From positions 124,001 to 188,000 of the forward strand of contig NZ_JAUSXK010000001.1 of the NCBI RefSeq assembly GCF_030815955.1: a stretch of DNA of 64,000 nt. Direction: 5' to 3'. Shown piece after piece: positions 22,084 to 32,850 of the stretch (position 1 is its first letter; every line of letters starts with the position of its first letter). The notes beneath the pieces are model-generated. The model worked only from the letters and a program-made list of their open reading frames with translations, was not told the DNA's origin and searched no databases. This DNA comes from Microbacterium murale (GTDB lineage: Bacteria > Actinomycetota > Actinomycetes > Actinomycetales > Microbacteriaceae). The translations under genes and the position numbers were made by a program.

Positions 22084-22786
22084 CTGATACCTCGTACCGC
22101 AGCTCGAGCCGCGCGGGAAGGGCGGTCCGCACCGACCAGCCGCTGGGGATGACTGCGGAGAGTTCGGCCGGCGTATATGCCCGGCGGATGCTGGTGAGCC
22201 CATCGGGTCGGATGAAGGAGCCGGCGAGCAGATTCCTCGCGAACGGCAGCGTCCCTGCGGCGAAGCCCCGGTAGGCGAGCCGGCTGCGTGCGATGTCCCG
22301 ATGGAGGACGACACCACCGTCCGAGATGAGCGCGGCCGAATCCTGGAGCAGTGACGACAGTTCGTCTCCGCTGAGATGATGCAGCAGATGATTGGAGATG
22401 ACGATGTCGAACGTCTCACCGGCATCCACGAGTTCGCTCGTGTACGCGCATCGATACTTCACCCCGCCGCCGCGACTGCGCGCCCACCGCACTGCTCTCG
22501 CGTCGGCGTCCAGCGCGGTGACCTCGATCGCCAATCCGTCCCTGCGCGACCAGTCCGCGAGCGCCCGCGACACATCCCCGCCGCCGGCACCGACGTCGAG
22601 GACACGGATCACCCGCGTTCGCGCCCGTGGACGGATGTCCCGTCGGTACACGGCGCGCCATCGGGAGACGACCGCGTTGATCAGGGGGAACCGCTCGTAG
22701 GTGCGCTCGAGCATCCGAAGATCCGCATCCGGGTCGTCCATCAGCTCACGCGCATCCACCGCACGAGCCGAGAGATCAGCTCTCAT
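22070..22786 (-). CDS. Class I SAM-dependent methyltransferase (SrsB-like context)
   Basis: A 238-aa methyltransferase. The SAM-binding motif VLDVGAGGGDVSRALADW is near residue 64-80, the acidic motif VTALDADARAVRWAR follows near 95, and the motif IVISNHLLHHL is near 133. It lies between a type III PKS gene (overlap 11 nt) and an FAD monooxygenase gene (overlap 14 nt), so all three are translationally linked. By analogy with srsB it would methylate a phenolic lipid or alkylpyrone made by the PKS. The substrate is inferred from context, not from the sequence. Confidence 0.85.
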   Translation of the reverse strand: MRADLSARAVDARELMDDPDADLRMLERTYERFPLINAVVSRWRAVYRRDIRPRARTRVIRVLDVGAGGGDVSRALADWSRRDGLAIEVTALDADARAVRWARSRGGGVKYRCAYTSELVDAGETFDIVISNHLLHHLSGDELSSLLQDSAALISDGGVVLHRDIARSRLAYRGFAAGTLPFARNLLAGSFIRPDGLTSIRRAYTPAELSAVIPSGWSVRTALPARLELRYEVSDAGS

Positions 22787-23939
22787 GGCTCCCCGGCGCG
22801 ACGACGGTCATCAGCGCGCTTTCGGCTGTGAGCCCTGGACCGAATGCCATCGCCGCCACCCGTTCCCCGTTCTGCGCCCCCTCGTCCAGGATCCGGCGCA
22901 GGACGAACAGCACCGTCGCGCTGGACATGTTGCCGTACTCCCGCAGCACTTCCCTCGCCGGCACCATCTGAGCATCTGAGAGGAGCAGTTTCTCCTGCAC
23001 CCGATCCACGATGCTGCGTCCACCGGGATGGATCGCCCAGTGTGCGATGCGCTCGCCGATCGAGTCGTTCTCGAACGCCTCTGCCAGTGTCTCCTCCGGT
23101 GCGTACAACGGCCTGAGCGCATCGTGGATGTGATCGCCGATGAGCTGCGGAACAGCCGTCGACAGGACCATCTCGAATCCGTGATCGCCGATCGTCCACG
23201 CCATGTCCTTCTTGCCCTCGGGGATCATGCCGGTGTGGAAGCGGTCAAGGGCGAGGCCGGGGACGGCGGAATCGAAGACACGAGAGGTGACGATGCCCGC
23301 CGCCGCACCGTCAGCGAACAGCGAGGTCGCGACGATCATGTCCGGGTCGTCGGTGGAGCGCAGGTGCAGCGTGCAGAGTTCGACGCTGACGACCAGCACC
23401 ACGGCATCCGGATCGCCCGCGCAGAACTCGCTCGCCGCACGCAGCGCGGGCATCGAGGCGTAGCAGCCCATGAACCCGAAGTGCTGGCGGCGCACGCCGT
23501 CCCGCAGCCCGAGGGCGCGGACGATCTCGTAATCGGGACCGGGCGCGTAGAAACCCGTGCATGACACGGTGATGACGTGCGTGATATCGGCAGCGGTGAT
23601 GTCGGGGTCGGCATCGAGCGCGCGCCTGGCCGCTTCGACGAACAACCGCCCGGCTTCGCGGATGTAGACCTCGTTGCGCGCCTTCGTGCCCGGCTCGAGC
23701 AGCAGACCCGTGTCACGGTCGAAGAACTGCGGATCGATGACGTCAGCCGTGAAGGACAGCTCCTCCAGGACCGTATGCCGGGTGTCGATCCCCGAACCGT
23801 TGAACGACGCCGAGACGATGCGTTTGGCGAGGCGACTGATCTCGGGTTGCGCGGCGAAGACGTCGCGCACCTCTTCCTGCGCCAGCACTGTCTCGGGAAC
23901 GATCGTCTGGATGGAGCGCAGCACAGGAGAAGGCGTCAT
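22776..23939 (-). CDS. Type III polyketide synthase
   Basis: A chalcone-synthase-like enzyme of about 387 aa. The catalytic triad is visible: Cys in TVSCTGFYAPGPD (near residue 127), His in HWAIHPGGRSIVD (near 304) and Asn in REYGNMSSATVLF (near 337). Type III enzymes load an acyl-CoA starter and extend it with malonyl-CoA, giving alkylresorcinols or alkylpyrones in bacteria. The start is the ATG at 23939; a GTG three codons earlier is possible. No good Shine-Dalgarno is seen. It opens a three-gene operon with a methyltransferase and an FAD monooxygenase, the srsABC arrangement. All catalytic residues are intact. The starter chain and final product are unknown. Confidence 0.92.
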   Translation of the reverse strand: MTPSPVLRSIQTIVPETVLAQEEVRDVFAAQPEISRLAKRIVSASFNGSGIDTRHTVLEELSFTADVIDPQFFDRDTGLLLEPGTKARNEVYIREAGRLFVEAARRALDADPDITAADITHVITVSCTGFYAPGPDYEIVRALGLRDGVRRQHFGFMGCYASMPALRAASEFCAGDPDAVVLVVSVELCTLHLRSTDDPDMIVATSLFADGAAAGIVTSRVFDSAVPGLALDRFHTGMIPEGKKDMAWTIGDHGFEMVLSTAVPQLIGDHIHDALRPLYAPEETLAEAFENDSIGERIAHWAIHPGGRSIVDRVQEKLLLSDAQMVPAREVLREYGNMSSATVLFVLRRILDEGAQNGERVAAMAFGPGLTAESALMTVVAPGSHES

Positions 23940-23985
23940 GTGTGTCACTCAAGCATGTGCACACCTTCAGGGAAAGGGGCTTGCG

Positions 23986-25435: not shown

Positions 25436-25726
25436 TCAGAGATCAAGGATGTCGAGATCGATGGTGAGCATGTCTCCCTCTTCGATCCCCTGCGCGTCGC
25501 GGATCGACCTCTTCAGCGGCAGCACGAACGCGTTGTCGCTGAAGAAGATCGATGTCCGCCAGATGGAGGCGCCGATCCTGGCCTGCACTCGCAACGAACC
25601 GAAGCCCCGTTTCGGTGCCGGCAGTTCGCGCAGCTCCAGCGAGAGCTCCTCGGGCATGGTCGCGAAGTACCACGACTCCACACGTTTGTCCCAGCGCGTG
25701 ACCGGGCTCTCGAACTCGATCTGCAT
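25436..25726 (-). CDS. DUF1905 domain-containing protein
   Basis: A 96-aa protein of the DUF1905 family, small beta-rich proteins found alone or fused to other domains. Recognisable parts are ESWYFATMPEELS, GFGSLRVQARIGASIWRTSIF, and AFVLPLKRSIRDAQGIEEGD near the C-terminus. The ATG at 25726 lies 6 nt after TACCGT (25733-25738), so it is probably leaderless. It is divergent from the imuA-imuB-dnaE2 operon and the promoters are back to back. No function is established. Confidence 0.85.
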   Translation of the reverse strand: MQIEFESPVTRWDKRVESWYFATMPEELSLELRELPAPKRGFGSLRVQARIGASIWRTSIFFSDNAFVLPLKRSIRDAQGIEEGDMLTIDLDILDL

Positions 25727-25750: not shown

Positions 25751-25773
25751 TTGTCGGATGTGCGAATTACGAT
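25751..25773 (+). promoter_or_regulatory. PafBC/RecA-NDp-like promoter of imuA-imuB-dnaE2
   Basis: TTGTCGGAT, 8 nt, then TACGAT. The mycobacterial DNA-damage promoter RecA-NDp, used by PafBC, is TTGTCRGTG-N8-TANNNT. Seven of nine positions match in the first element, and the spacing and the -10 box are exact. It lies about 47 nt before the imuA start. No LexA box was found in the same gap. Confidence 0.6.
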
Positions 25774-25819
25774 GAGGGTTCCACTTGCTTTATTCGTAGA
25801 TAAATTCGAGGATGGATGT

Positions 25820-26584
25820 ATGGGCACAGCACTCTCCGCCCCCTCCGCTCTCCCCCGCGAGGGCAACGCCTCCCGCGCACAGGAGGTGCACCGCCTGCGC
25901 GGCGAGATCGCCCGCATGCAGCGGCGGCGCAGCGATGTACCCTTCCTCCCCCTCGACCCAGCCCTGGAGGGGCTACTGCCCGATCCCGGTCTGCGGGTCG
26001 GTTCCTCATACTCCCTCTCGCCATCACCGAGCCTTCTGGGCGCTCTGCTCGCCGCCCCTTCGCAGAAGGGGTCGTGGTGCGCGATCATCGGCATGCCCAC
26101 GATCGGCGTCGAGGCGATGGCAGGCTTCGGCGTCGAGCTGGACCGTCTCGTCCTCGTGCCTGATCCCGGTCCGCGCTGGCTCACGGTCGCCACTGCGCTC
26201 TCGGAGGTGATCCCGCTCATCGCGGTGCATCCGCGCAGCAGGGTCGCCGATGCAGACATCGCCCGGCTGAACGCGCGCCTGCGCGATCGCGGCTGCACAC
26301 TGCTGGTCACAGCGCCCTGGCCGCAGAGCGAGGCGACGATCCGCGTGGAGGAGACCGAGTGGCACGGCCTTGGCGAAGGCTGGGGGCTCCTCGCCGATCG
26401 CACCGTGACTCTGCGCGCATCGGGGCGGCGGCATGAGGCTCCCAGTCGGGTGCGGGTGCGGATGCCTACCTCCCTCGGACGCGTGGATGCCGCACCGGCG
26501 CCCCTGCGCCCGGTGGCGCCTCTACCCGTGCCAGTACCTCACACGATCAGTGCCGGATCCGGCAGTTGGGCGGCGGCCGGATGA
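25820..26584 (+). CDS. imuA: ImuA-type mutasome protein
   Basis: A 254-aa protein directly before imuB and dnaE2. It has weak RecA-like character in the middle (GVELDRLVLVPDPGPRWLTVATALSE, near residues 105-130) and a Pro-rich tail. In bacteria with this cassette, ImuA helps the accessory factor ImuB and the error-prone polymerase DnaE2 in lesion bypass; in M. tuberculosis the gene is imuA'. The start ATG at 25820 is set by the promoter at 25751-25773; the open frame extends further upstream but without support. Its stop overlaps the imuB start by 4 nt (ATGA). Sequence is poorly conserved in this family, so identification relies largely on context. Confidence 0.85.
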   Translation: MGTALSAPSALPREGNASRAQEVHRLRGEIARMQRRRSDVPFLPLDPALEGLLPDPGLRVGSSYSLSPSPSLLGALLAAPSQKGSWCAIIGMPTIGVEAMAGFGVELDRLVLVPDPGPRWLTVATALSEVIPLIAVHPRSRVADADIARLNARLRDRGCTLLVTAPWPQSEATIRVEETEWHGLGEGWGLLADRTVTLRASGRRHEAPSRVRVRMPTSLGRVDAAPAPLRPVAPLPVPVPHTISAGSGSWAAAG

Positions 26585-28104
26585 GCATGCCCCCTCGTCA
26601 TCTCGTGCTGTGGCTGCCGGACTGGCCGGTGCGGGCAGCGCTCGGAGCACCGCCCGCAGATGAACCCGTCGCCGTCGTGCAGGCGAACATGGTGATCGCG
26701 TGCTCGGCATCCGCCCGAGCGCAGGGAGTGCGGCGCGGCCAGCGCCGGCGGCTGGCGCAGACCCGCTCCCCCTCGCTGCGCCTCATCCCCGCAGATCCTC
26801 GCCGTGACGAGCGCGCCTTCCTGCCCGTGCTGCGTCTGCTGGAAGAACTCGTACCCGGCGTCCAGCCGCTGCGCCCCGGTCTTGCCGCGCTGCGCGCCCG
26901 AGGAGCGGCCCGCTACTACGGCGGAGAGGAGCAGGCAGCGCTGCGCCTCATCGACGCTCTCGCCGAGCATGACCATCCCGGCACTCGTGCGGCCATCGCC
27001 GATGGACTCTTCACTGCAGAGCAGGCCGCGCGTCTGGCAGCACCGGCACTCATCGTCACCCCTGGCGGGTCACAGGAGTTCCTCGCCCCTCTTCCCGTGC
27101 AGGCGCTGGGCGACGAAGAGGTGACCGCCCTGCTCGAAAGGCTGGGCATCCGCACCCTTGCGGAGTTCGCCGCCCTCGCCGAGACCGACATCCGCGACCG
27201 GCTGGGTGAGCGCGGGGCGAGGTTGCACGCGCTGGCCTCCGGCGCCGATTCCCGACCGCTGGTGCCGCAGCATCCAGAACCGGAGCTCGCACGCGAGGTC
27301 GTGTTCGAGACGCCCCTCGAACAGGCCGATCAGGTGGCGTTCGCGGTGCGGCAGACAGCGGATGCCGTCACCGCGGCTCTCGCCGAGCTCTCACAGGTGT
27401 GCACCGAGGTACGGATCGACCTGACCGATGATGACGGAGCGATCTCGACGCGGGTGTGGATGCACCCGACCTCTTTCGAGGCGAGCGACCTGGTCGATCG
27501 GGTGCGCTGGCAGTTGGAGTCCCTTCCCGCATCTGCGAAGTCCGATCGCGCATCGGCAGGCATCGCCGAAGTGCGGATCGTGCCGACCAGGGTCGATGAC
27601 AGCGCCCATCACCAGCCCGGCCTCTTCGGACAGGGACCGCAGCAGCGACTGCACCATGCCGTCTCCCGGGTGCAGGCGATGCTCGGTCATCGCGGCGTGG
27701 TCACCCCTGTGGTCGTGGGCGGGCGCCGGCTCGCCGACCGACAGCTGCTTCAACCCTGGGGCGACCGGGTTCCCTCGGAGCGCGATGCCGCACTGCCCTG
27801 GCCTGGCAGCCTGCCTCCGCCGTATCCTTCCGAGATATTCAATCCACCGCTGCCCGCACGGCTGACCGCGGCAGATGGCACGCCGCCGCGGGTGGACGAG
27901 CGTGGCGCGCTCTCCGCCGCCCCCGCTTGGATCGAGGAGACGGCGGTTTCCAGCTGGGCGGGCCCCTGGCCGCTGCGCGAGCGCACCTGGGACAAGGAGC
28001 AGGCCCGCCTCGCACAACGCCTTCAGATCGTCGACGAGTCGCAGCGTGCCTGGCTGGTGCTCTGGGAGGACGACTCCTGGTGGGTCGAAGGGCGGTACCG
28101 CTGA
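26581..28104 (+). CDS. imuB: Catalytically inactive Y-family polymerase ImuB
   Basis: A 507-aa Y-family-like protein. The N-terminal region reads LVLWLPDWPVRAAL where active polymerases have a metal-binding Asp followed by aromatic residues. The usual SIDE motif is replaced by GLAALRARGAARYYGG, so the active site acids are missing, as is typical of ImuB. A helix-hairpin-helix region follows (LLERLGIRTLAEFAAL, near residue 190) and a long C-terminal tail ends in PWPLRERTWDKEQARLAQ. ImuB is the hub that ties DnaE2 and ImuA to the sliding clamp. It starts inside the imuA stop codon and ends with a one-base overlap with dnaE2 (TGATG), so the three are cotranslated. Confidence 0.92.
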   Translation: MSMPPRHLVLWLPDWPVRAALGAPPADEPVAVVQANMVIACSASARAQGVRRGQRRRLAQTRSPSLRLIPADPRRDERAFLPVLRLLEELVPGVQPLRPGLAALRARGAARYYGGEEQAALRLIDALAEHDHPGTRAAIADGLFTAEQAARLAAPALIVTPGGSQEFLAPLPVQALGDEEVTALLERLGIRTLAEFAALAETDIRDRLGERGARLHALASGADSRPLVPQHPEPELAREVVFETPLEQADQVAFAVRQTADAVTAALAELSQVCTEVRIDLTDDDGAISTRVWMHPTSFEASDLVDRVRWQLESLPASAKSDRASAGIAEVRIVPTRVDDSAHHQPGLFGQGPQQRLHHAVSRVQAMLGHRGVVTPVVVGGRRLADRQLLQPWGDRVPSERDAALPWPGSLPPPYPSEIFNPPLPARLTAADGTPPRVDERGALSAAPAWIEETAVSSWAGPWPLRERTWDKEQARLAQRLQIVDESQRAWLVLWEDDSWWVEGRYR

Positions 28105-31100
28105 TGGGCTTCCACAATCCTCCACTGACCTGGAAAGAGCTCGAGCAGACCCTCAGCGGGCGCGCGCCATCCGAGCCGGCAGAGCTTCGACCACGGCCGG
28201 ATCCGGGGCCGATCAGCCGTCGAAGGGTTCCGACGCCTCCGCCGACGGTCATCCCACCCGAAGACGCCGTCCCCTACGCCGAGCTGCACGCCCACACGTC
28301 GTACTCCTTTCTCGATGGTGCCTCATCCTCCGAAGATCTGCTCGCCGAGGCGGCACGGCTCGGACTCACGGCTCTCGCCATCACCGACCACGACGGCTTC
28401 TACGGCGCCGCCAGGTTCGCAGAGGTCGCTGATCTGATGAAGAGCGGACTGCAGACCGTCTTCGGCGCCGAGCTGTCGCTCGGACTCCCCGCTCCACAGG
28501 GCGGCGTCCCCGACCCTGTGGGAGAGCATCTGCTCGTGCTGGCCCGCGGGCTCGAGGGGTACCATCGCCTCGCCGGAGCGATCACCAGGGCGCAACTGCG
28601 CGGTGGTGAGAAGGGGCGCCCGGTCTACGACCTCGATGATCTGGCATCGAGCGCGGACGGGAACTGGACGATCCTCACCGGATGCCGCAAGGGCGGCGTG
28701 CGCCAGGGGCTCGCGGCAGGCGATGCCGCGACGCCGCTGCGCCGCCTCGTCGACCTGTTCGGCAGGGACAACGTCGCCGTCGAACTCTTCGACCACGGCG
28801 ATCCGCAGGACACTCGCCGTAACGACGCCCTCACCGATCTCGCCACCGAACACCGCCTCCCCGTGGTGGCGACGAACAACGTGCACTATGCGACTCCCGA
28901 GCGCGCCGGACTCGCAGAGGCCATGGCCGCGGTGCGCGCGGTGCGCAGCATGGATGATCTGGACGGGTGGCTGCCCTCCCACGGTGCAGCGCATCTGCGC
29001 AGCGGCGCTGAGATGACCGCGCGATTCCAGCGTTACCCCGGTGCGATCTCGCACGGCCTCCTCATCGCCGAGGAGTCCGCCTTCCCGCTGCGACGCGCAC
29101 GACCGGATCTGCCGAGGCAGAAGGTGCCGGAGGGGCACACCCCGATGAGCTGGCTGCGCCGGCTGGTGTGGGATGCCGTCCCCGCCAGGTATCCCCGCCT
29201 CGACGACGACGGGCGAGCCAGGATCGACCGCGAACTGAACGTGATCGAGGAGAAGGATTTCCCCGGCTACTTCCTGATCGTGCACGGGATCGTCGCCGAG
29301 GCGAAGCGTCGCGGCATCCTCTGCCAGGGGCGAGGATCTGCTGCGGCGAGCGCCGTCTGCTATCTGCTCGGCATCACCGCGGTCGACCCGATCCTCTACG
29401 GGCTGCCGTTCGAGCGGTTCCTCGCCAGCACCCGCACCGAAGAGCCCGACATAGATGTGGACTTCGACTCCGGGCGACGCGAGGAGATCATCCAGTGGGT
29501 CTACGAGCAGTACGGGCGTGAACGCGCGGCGCAGGTGGCGAACGTCATCCAGTACCGTCCGAAGAACGCCGTGCGCGACATGGCGAGAGCACTGGGATAC
29601 TCCCCCGGACAGCAGGATGCCTGGTCACGTCAGGTCGACGGCTGGGGTGCCGACCTCATGCCCGTGGACGGCCATGACATCCCCGAGACTGTGCTGGAGT
29701 ACGCCAGCGATGTGCTGAAAGCGCCACGGCACCTCGGCATCCACTCCGGCGGAATGGTGCTCACCGCGCGCCCGGTCGGAGAGGTCGTGCCGGTCGAGCA
29801 CGCCCGGATGGAGAATCGCACCGTCATCCAGTGGGACAAGGACGACGCCGCCTGGATGGGACTGGTGAAGTTCGACCTGCTGGGGCTGGGGATGCTCGCC
29901 GCCCTGCAGAACTGCTTCGAGATCATCGCCGCAACCACCGGGGAGAGCTGGACGCTGGAGACCATCCCCAAGGAGGAGCCGGCGGTCTACGACATGCTCT
30001 GCCGCGCCGACTCGATCGGGGTGTTCCAGGTGGAATCGCGTGCGCAGATCGGCCTGCTCCCCCGGCTGCAGCCCCGCTGCTTCTACGATCTCGCCATCCA
30101 GATCGCCCTCATCCGCCCCGGTCCGATCCAGGGCGGTGCGGTGCACCCCTTCGTACGCCGCAAGATGGAGAAGGACCGCATCGACGAGGAGAATCGTCGC
30201 CGGGCAGCCCGCGGCGAGGCTCCGACGCCACCGATGGAGATCCCCTACCCGCACCCGGTCCTCAAGCCGGCGTTGGAGCGCACGCTCGGCATTCCCATCT
30301 TCCAGGAGCAGCTCATCCAGATGGCCACGACGATCGGCGACTGCACGGCCGACGAGGCTGACACCCTCCGTCGTGCCATGGGCTCCAAGCGCGGTCTGGA
30401 GCGGATCGACAGCATCCGCGACAAGCTGTACGCCGGCATGGCGCGGCACGGCCTTTCTCATGAGCAGGCCGATCGCATCTACGAGCAGATCCAGGCGTTC
30501 TCGAACTTCGGCTTCGCCGAGTCGCACTCCCTGTCGTTCGCGCTGCTCGTCTACGCCAGCTCCTGGCTGAAACTGCACTACCCCGCCGCCTTCCTCGCCG
30601 GTCTCCTGCGCTCCCAGCCGATGGGCTTCTACTCCGCGTCGACGCTCACCGCTGATGCCAGGCGGCACGGTGTGGAGGTGCGCAGGCCAGACCTCCACGC
30701 ATCGGCGGCGACCGACTCCCTGGAGCCCCTGTCTCTGGAAGACCTGACGGATTCCCCCGCTCAGACCGGGCGGGACTCCTGCCGCACGTACGAGCAGCCG
30801 GCTGCGCCCCGTTTCGACAGGAATGCACCGGATGAGTCGGCAGAGCACCGTCGTGACGGCGCCTTCGCCGTGCGCCTCGGCCTCAGCGAGGTACGCGGGA
30901 TAGGAAAGTCGATGGCGGAACGCATCGTGGCAGAGCGGGAGGCGAACGGCCCCTACCGTGACCTGCACGATCTGGTGCGGCGCACGGATGCCACAGCCGC
31001 TCAGCTGGAGTCTCTGGCCACGGCGGGCGCCTTCGAATGTCTCGGGCTGAAGCGCCGCGAGGCGATCTGGCTCGCAGGCGCCGCCGCATCCGACCGCGCC

Positions 31101-31568
31101 CGCTTCCTGCCCGGCACGACCGTGTCGGTGCAGCCTCCGCTGTTCACCGACCAGACGAGCTATGAGCAGCTGGCCGCAGATCTCTCCGCCACCGGCGTCT
31201 CCACGGATGACCATCCGATGGCGCACTTCCGCTCCGCACTGGGCGAGCGGGGCGTGCTCACCGCCGCGCAGCTGCGCGAGCATGAGGTCGGACGGCGCAT
31301 CGAGGTCGCCGGTCTCGTCACTCACCGGCAGCGCCCTGCGACAGCGGCCGGGGTCACGTTCCTGAACCTCGAGGACGAGCACGGACTCGTCAACGTGGTC
31401 TGTTCGACCGGGGTCTGGAACCGCTATCGACGAGTCGCAAGAGACTCGCCGGCGCTGATCGTCCGCGGCATGCTGGAGCGTTCCCCCGAGGGCGTCATCA
31501 ATGTGCTCGCAGACGGATTCCAGGATCTGCGCACCGGCATCGAGCATCGATCCCGCGACTTCCGATGA
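28104..31568 (+). CDS. dnaE2: Error-prone DNA polymerase DnaE2
   Basis: A 1154-aa C-family polymerase used in damage-induced mutagenesis. The PHP domain starts near residue 52 (YAELHAHTSYSFLDGASS, then ITDHDGFYGA). The catalytic Asp pair lies in PDIDVDFDSGRRE near residue 446-458. The finger and thumb regions follow (ALIRPGPIQGGAVHPFVRRK near 670), then a helix-hairpin-helix (VRGIGKSMAERIVAE near 930) and an OB fold near the end. A stretch around residues 870-915 is poorly conserved and longer than usual. The ATG overlaps the imuB stop by one base. The whole cassette makes a translesion machine that raises mutation under DNA damage. Confidence 0.96.
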   Translation: MGFHNPPLTWKELEQTLSGRAPSEPAELRPRPDPGPISRRRVPTPPPTVIPPEDAVPYAELHAHTSYSFLDGASSSEDLLAEAARLGLTALAITDHDGFYGAARFAEVADLMKSGLQTVFGAELSLGLPAPQGGVPDPVGEHLLVLARGLEGYHRLAGAITRAQLRGGEKGRPVYDLDDLASSADGNWTILTGCRKGGVRQGLAAGDAATPLRRLVDLFGRDNVAVELFDHGDPQDTRRNDALTDLATEHRLPVVATNNVHYATPERAGLAEAMAAVRAVRSMDDLDGWLPSHGAAHLRSGAEMTARFQRYPGAISHGLLIAEESAFPLRRARPDLPRQKVPEGHTPMSWLRRLVWDAVPARYPRLDDDGRARIDRELNVIEEKDFPGYFLIVHGIVAEAKRRGILCQGRGSAAASAVCYLLGITAVDPILYGLPFERFLASTRTEEPDIDVDFDSGRREEIIQWVYEQYGRERAAQVANVIQYRPKNAVRDMARALGYSPGQQDAWSRQVDGWGADLMPVDGHDIPETVLEYASDVLKAPRHLGIHSGGMVLTARPVGEVVPVEHARMENRTVIQWDKDDAAWMGLVKFDLLGLGMLAALQNCFEIIAATTGESWTLETIPKEEPAVYDMLCRADSIGVFQVESRAQIGLLPRLQPRCFYDLAIQIALIRPGPIQGGAVHPFVRRKMEKDRIDEENRRRAARGEAPTPPMEIPYPHPVLKPALERTLGIPIFQEQLIQMATTIGDCTADEADTLRRAMGSKRGLERIDSIRDKLYAGMARHGLSHEQADRIYEQIQAFSNFGFAESHSLSFALLVYASSWLKLHYPAAFLAGLLRSQPMGFYSASTLTADARRHGVEVRRPDLHASAATDSLEPLSLEDLTDSPAQTGRDSCRTYEQPAAPRFDRNAPDESAEHRRDGAFAVRLGLSEVRGIGKSMAERIVAEREANGPYRDLHDLVRRTDATAAQLESLATAGAFECLGLKRREAIWLAGAAASDRARFLPGTTVSVQPPLFTDQTSYEQLAADLSATGVSTDDHPMAHFRSALGERGVLTAAQLREHEVGRRIEVAGLVTHRQRPATAAGVTFLNLEDEHGLVNVVCSTGVWNRYRRVARDSPALIVRGMLERSPEGVINVLADGFQDLRTGIEHRSRDFR

Positions 31569-32426: not shown

Positions 32427-32850
32427 CGAGCGTCAACGATTCGTCAACACGGTCGGCGACCTGCTCACCTCCTGGAACCTCTCCCGCGCCACCGGTCGTG
32501 TATACGGCTATCTGCTCATCAGTGCAGAACCGGCGTCGTCGGATCAGCTCCGCGCAGTGTTGTCACTGAGTACGGGTGCGGTGAGCGCTTCCGTCCGCGA
32601 ACTCGTCTCGTGGGGGCTGGCGCGGACCATTCCGCAACCGGGCAGCAGACGACTGCTCATCGAGGCTGCGGGCGGGTTCGAGCAGCTTCTCGCAGCGAGT
32701 CACGAGCGTGCCCGCGCATTCGTCCGCACTCTGCGTGCCGGAGAGGACGTCGTCGAGGGCGAACACGCTGTCGCCCGCCTGCGCGATGTCACCGACCTCT
32801 TCGAGGCGTACATCGATTCCGGGGAGCGGATGCTGCGCGAGCGCACCTGA
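32419..32850 (+). CDS. GbsR/MarR family transcriptional regulator
   Basis: A 143-aa winged-helix regulator. The DNA-binding part reads [52 protein letters not shown] over residues ~14-65, matching the GbsR-like subgroup of MarR proteins. The C-terminal helices include the pattern AFVRTLRAGEDVVEGEHAVARLRDV typical of actinobacterial members. It overlaps the upstream hydrolase gene by 8 nt and is probably cotranscribed with it. No operator could be assigned with confidence. Confidence 0.85.
   Translation: MDDERQRFVNTVGDLLTSWNLSRATGRVYGYLLISAEPASSDQLRAVLSLSTGAVSASVRELVSWGLARTIPQPGSRRLLIEAAGGFEQLLAASHERARAFVRTLRAGEDVVEGEHAVARLRDVTDLFEAYIDSGERMLRERT

Follow-up and report, generated by a model that had tools for sequence, protein, structure and literature searches.

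Our analyses point, with a probability of roughly 0.6, to a DNA damage-induced mutasome operon in Microbacterium murale that is controlled by two switches in tandem, one of PafBC type and one of LexA type, with the LexA arm weakened. The operon lies in a 64,000-nucleotide stretch of DNA (i.e., the window, the whole stretch that was analyzed) from a genome of 4.11 Mb in one contig. The sequence, its conservation, and the presence of both PafBC and LexA are established here. The features discussed below are given in window coordinates, except for the last one.

25751 to 25773, forward strand: P1, a predicted PafBC/RecA-NDp-type promoter, whose register is the same in 75 of the 76 distinct loci of the genus and whose columns are near-invariant in the window clade
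25785 to 25813, forward strand: P2, an inferred SigA-type promoter, with an invariant TTG and the same spacing as in relatives
25794 to 25809, no strand assigned: TCGTAGATAAATTCGA within the P2 spacer, a putative LexA-type operator in degenerate form, 11.4 bits, orthologous to canonical boxes
25808 to 25811, forward strand: GAGG, 8 nt ahead of the ATG, which may serve P1 transcripts as a ribosome-binding site (read from the sequence)
25820 to 26584, forward strand: imuA' (NF058630, 170 bits), ATG at 25820 and TGA at 26584
26581 to 28104, forward strand: imuB, a Y-family relative lacking the Asp-Glu pair (IMS domain, 43 bits)
28104 to 31568, forward strand: dnaE2, an error-prone polymerase (NF004225, 1371 bits)
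L032:17-1030: PafB of the host genome, whose recognition helix was compared with those of 30 Microbacterium genomes (L315 to L344)

The three genes form a compact cassette, as an earlier note on this DNA had described. The ATG of imuB (26581) overlaps the end of imuA' by 4 nt (ATGA), and that of dnaE2 (28104) overlaps the end of imuB by 1 nt (TGATG). An ImuA' family protein, an ImuB protein, and a DnaE2-type polymerase are thus encoded side by side. ImuB was expected to lack the catalytic acids; PGLAAL of ImuB stands against WDEAYL of 4dez (DNA polymerase IV), so the Asp-Glu pair is missing, and the first catalytic Asp falls outside the aligned part. The window imuA' is 73 to 93% identical (best segment) to those of eight Microbacterium-named loci. 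A DUF1905 gene (25436 to 25726, minus strand) diverges from imuA', with its start 25 bp from P1, and the upstream sequence differs (by eye) in several close relatives. A chalcone/stilbene-synthase-type (type III polyketide synthase) gene is located at 22776 to 23948 on the minus strand, followed by apparent methyltransferase and flavin monooxygenase genes (judged by eye).

P1 consists of the −26 element TTGTCGGAT (25751 to 25759), an 8-bp spacer, and the −10 sequence TACGAT (25768 to 25773), from which we infer a transcription start near 25780. The promoter was found where the earlier note had placed it, with two mismatches to the consensus taken from that note (TTGTCRGTG-N8-TANNNT) and agreement at seven of the nine bases of the −26 element. 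It carries GAT where the consensus reads GTG; the T at position 9 is unusual, and the A at position 8 is shared with the recA site in 19 of 30 genomes. On its own, this match is weak evidence and does not exceed chance. When up to three mismatches were allowed, the window held 36 matches versus 26.8 ± 5.1 in shuffled sequences (7 of 100 shuffles reached 36), and two matches, P1 and one at 32560, had two mismatches. A matrix built from 14 repair-gene and similar sites of the host genome ranked P1 fourth among 127,956 window positions. By a matrix built exclusively from the recA NDp sites of 29 other genomes, P1 scored poorly, with 161 of the 127,956 positions doing equally well; that matrix was set aside as overtrained, but the poor score still counts against the PafBC reading.

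We regard P1 as real because it is conserved, and not because of the match in a single window. An imuA' match was present in 97 of 99 Microbacterium genomes, of which 70 (30 plus 40) were fetched and combined with the eight named loci into 78 rows, 76 of them distinct. The pattern TGTC-N-G-N10-TA-NNNT, with an 8-bp spacer before the −10 sequence, precedes imuA' in 75 of these 76 regions, window included (34/34 in the window clade and 41/42 elsewhere in the genus; only TANNNT was allowed as the −10 sequence here, and also CANNNT in the family pattern below). Shuffled sequences gave 0.001 to 0.002 occurrences per locus in that register. The distance from the pattern to the best downstream LexA-type site is 16 to 23 bp across the genus. 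Among the 33 unique rows of the window clade, TGTC, the next G, and TA each hold about 2 bits per column, versus 0.1 to 0.3 bits for the four furthest-upstream bases. Because the gene upstream of imuA' varies among relatives (by eye), the conservation of P1 belongs to imuA'.

The window clade additionally carries a near-invariant GATGTNCGAA inside the P1 spacer. This invariance, together with the resemblance of the block (3 mismatches) to a sequence found at the LysM gene that adjoins lexA, could mean that a different regulator binds the P1 block, or that the block is a LexA half-site. We consider this very improbable: a genome search with the extended block (up to three mismatches) gave no standout second copy (seven matches including itself versus five for the control), the maximum of the LexA matrix over the block is low in most loci, and recA and repair genes share the same TGTC..TA register. 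The same genome counts ruled out the extended block as a motif common to many genes. The LysM promoter adjoining lexA has, in the window clade, an extra TTCGAACATCTGTCAA-like stretch (genome C1:291586-291607, minus strand; by eye), which is the stretch that resembles the GATGTNCGAA block.

It is very likely that P1 belongs to the PafBC (RecA-NDp) promoters. We read it so because of its fixed register in the genus, the like sites at recA and repair genes, and the presence of pafB and pafC in the genome; this agrees with the assignment in the earlier note. PafBC has been described as working with the housekeeping polymerase at a −26 motif, with single-stranded DNA as its activator (PMC11804915), and RecA-NDp is reported to extend into other Actinobacteria (PMC8223512). 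The host genome encodes two adjacent WYL proteins, followed by apparent tatA and tatC genes (by eye). The pair matched the solved Arthrobacter PafB and PafC, the mycobacterial complex, and also the Pfam WYL, WCX, and PafC HTH domains; a search of NCBIfam returned no name for either protein. The host recA is preceded by the RecA-NDp-type site ATGTCGGAGGTCGCTCGTACGGT, and such a site was found in all 30 genomes compared. A genome-wide search with RTGTCGGWG-N8-TANNNT (up to one mismatch) detected 58 sites in the host genome versus 11 for the reversed pattern. Genes for repair or replication lie behind 11 of 34 sites that were chosen by eye from the genome match lists and inspected, the other 23 preceding genes of other or unclear function. 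In a profile scan of ten of these 11 genes, UvrB, exonuclease III, RecF, Tag, LigA, and SSB scored above the cutoffs; UvrA, PcrA, a RarA-like ATPase, and FtsK were best matches below the cutoff, three of them ending at the locus edge. A −26-type element, ATGTCGGTGGCCCGTGGTGTGGT, also stands on the reverse strand directly before the lexA start (genome C1:291701-291723, minus strand), and its core is retained in most of the 30 genomes (by eye).

The recognition helix of PafB reads LEKMFERDK or LDKMFERDK in all 30 Microbacterium genomes, with Leu at the F42 position and Lys at the R44 position, whereas the solved Arthrobacter and mycobacterial PafB proteins have F and R there. This substitution coincides with the A that many −26 elements of the genus carry at position 8. 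R44 of PafB has been called strictly conserved, and a mutant in both arginines was reported to resemble a deletion (PMC6789036).

Downstream of P1, the sequence TCGTAGATAAATTCGA (25794 to 25809) resembles a LexA operator. The earlier note had reported that no LexA box was visible and had proposed LexA-independent control; the first statement is contradicted by this box, and the second is not supported, the box being degenerate here but occupying the place where relatives keep a canonical one. We scored sites with a LexA matrix built from 96 boxes (30 from recA and 66 from the imuA' regions of relatives, the window box being left out). With both strands counted, TCGTAGATAAATTCGA is among the best four of 127,970 window positions, which represent two sites (itself included) because the matrix is palindromic. 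With three mismatches it departs from the LexA consensus TCGAACNNNNGTTCGA, which most relatives outside the window clade match canonically. At the orthologous place, the rest of the genus mostly has TAGAAC-N4-GTTCTA, with boxes such as TAGAACATCTGTTCTA.

The scores suggest that the imuA' operator has been weakened in the window lineage. Within the host genome, the imuA' box scores 11.4 bits and the recA box 25.0 bits. For the window and the 10 distinct relatives closest to it, the imuA' boxes range from 10.7 to 16.3 bits, compared with 18.4 to 31.4 bits in the genus outside the window clade, and recA boxes range from 19.7 to 28.1 bits in 30 of 30 genomes. Scores below 17 bits were found at 16 of 34 loci in the window clade and at 0 of 42 other genus loci; the other 18 clade boxes reach at least 17 bits. 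Coevolution of LexA with its boxes was ruled out as the cause of the drift, the recognition helix being identical in 30 of 30 genomes (the residue after the helix varies, Gly or Asn). On a RecA plus LexA tree of the 30 genomes, in which several forks are weak, the 17-bit cut requires four changes, which does not point to one single loss. A whole-genome search with the strict LexA consensus was uninformative: there was no exact match among those listed, and the 646 matches per strand with up to two mismatches (versus 134 for the control) were dominated by TCGA-rich DNA.

It could be argued, in line with the earlier note, that LexA no longer binds the imuA' promoter in this lineage and that PafBC alone drives the operon, given the gap between the imuA' and recA boxes of one genome, the low scores at 11 of 11 close-lineage loci, and the strong conservation of P1. 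We consider this unlikely. The arms TCG.A and TTCGA of the box are still conserved across the window clade. Moreover, the best boxes of the lexA-LysM region score 6.5 to 20.1 bits; because sites of such strength are the best beside lexA, a low score need not mean weak repression. In Streptomyces venezuelae, LexA is reported to bind the dnaE2 box TCGTACGTACGTTC, which has the same left arm, although less tightly than other boxes (PMC9380542). A weakened but present LexA arm is the reading that we prefer.

The opposite alternative, ordinary LexA control in which P2 and the operator do the work and P1 is minor or silent, draws on the wider distribution of boxes. In other Microbacteriaceae genera (28 genomes sampled out of 83 with an imuA' match), a strong LexA box, T[CA]GAA-N5-GTTCGA (e.g., TCGAACATATGTTCGA), precedes imuA' in 28 of 28 loci. 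Across the class (40 genomes sampled out of 80 with an imuA' match), a LexA site of at least 18 bits was found before imuA' in 33 of 40 loci; two loci have weak sites (6.1 and 11.3 bits), and five have none nearby, perhaps because their genes lie inside longer operons. The RecA dependence reported for M. tuberculosis imuA', imuB, and dnaE2 (PMC8151990) fits the same picture. In the window lineage, however, P1 is better conserved than P2, and both the −35 and −10 sequences of P2 look poor; we therefore give ordinary LexA control little credence, and less than PafBC acting alone. The −26 element itself has a narrower range. In 14 of the 28 other-genus loci it ends one base into the LexA box, as in ATGTCGGTGGCAATTGACATATTCGAACATATGTTCG; one further locus has a similar element 53 bp upstream, and 13 have none. 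Outside the family, 1 of the 40 class loci had the pattern in this register, even when a looser pattern was included, which counts against the two-switch reading. The pairing of predicted PafBC and LexA sites is common to much of the family, with the Microbacterium element about 21 bp further upstream than in the other genera.

P2 reads TTGCTT (25785 to 25790), 17 bp, GAGGAT (25808 to 25813), and six bases to the ATG. The TTG is invariant in the 33 unique clade rows, and relatives have TTGAAT-N17-TAGAAT or TTGACA-N17-GAATAT with the same spacing. These features suggest a leaderless SigA promoter whose spacer holds the LexA operator and which would be weak in the window lineage, where GAGG may now double as a ribosome-binding site for P1 transcripts.

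In the tandem arrangement that we favor, PafBC bound to single-stranded DNA would, upon damage, enable the housekeeping RNA polymerase to use the −26 element and TACGAT at P1. P2 would start at the imuA' ATG, with the LexA operator in its spacer. Because the operator adjoins the expected P1 start on the downstream side, LexA would damp both promoters. Decay of the operator would imply that control has probably moved toward PafBC in the window lineage, leaving LexA repression only loose. Here the start sites, binding, induction, and the dominant arm are inferred from sequence. A stronger version, to which we give some chance but one well below even, holds that in one Microbacterium lineage induced mutagenesis is passing from LexA to PafBC: the mutasome operator decays, the recA operator stays intact, P1 gains a conserved block, and the old −10 sequence doubles as a ribosome-binding site. 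If so, mutagenesis would answer single-stranded DNA through PafBC, and LexA cleavage would be unneeded. The lineage offers a natural promoter series in which the PafBC-type element is constant and the LexA operator next to it ranges from canonical to eroded; with this series one can ask, in environmental bacteria, which damage sensor controls mutagenesis and whether the balance evolves.

A literature search that covered mainly open-access journals listed no paper on PafBC/LexA control of the cassette in Microbacterium. The pairing of the two pathways on this cassette is already known: the mycobacterial genes are described as being under both the LexA/RecA and PafBC responses (PMC10421592, citing Adefisayo et al. 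2021), so that the contrast drawn in the earlier note with mycobacteria as mainly LexA controlled is outdated. In M. smegmatis biofilms, dnaE2 is reported to be induced mainly via recA and not pafBC (PMC12702967), which counts against the two-switch reading. Because dual control is known in mycobacteria, the news lies in the layout and the fading LexA site, namely, the tandem layout of the genus, the fused layout of the family, and a lineage with an eroded LexA operator. The mycobacterial system has the same cassette and both damage pathways, but it is described as split (PMC10421592), whereas the window has a single three-gene operon, with the −26 element separated from the LexA promoter and with an eroded LexA box. 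In S. venezuelae, the error-prone polymerase operon dnaE2-dinP is under LexA, and one of the boxes has a TCGTA left arm, as here; an initial search described in that source saw no conservation of the M. smegmatis PafBC motif in S. venezuelae (PMC9380542), whereas the window has a −26 element. Another parallel is recA itself, where a LexA promoter and a PafBC-dependent RecA-NDp promoter are described in tandem (PMC8223512, PMC11804915), as at imuA'. Such tandem damage promoters were found at recA in 30 of 30 genomes of this genus, with the order reversed: the LexA box lies upstream at recA, and the −26 element lies upstream at imuA'.
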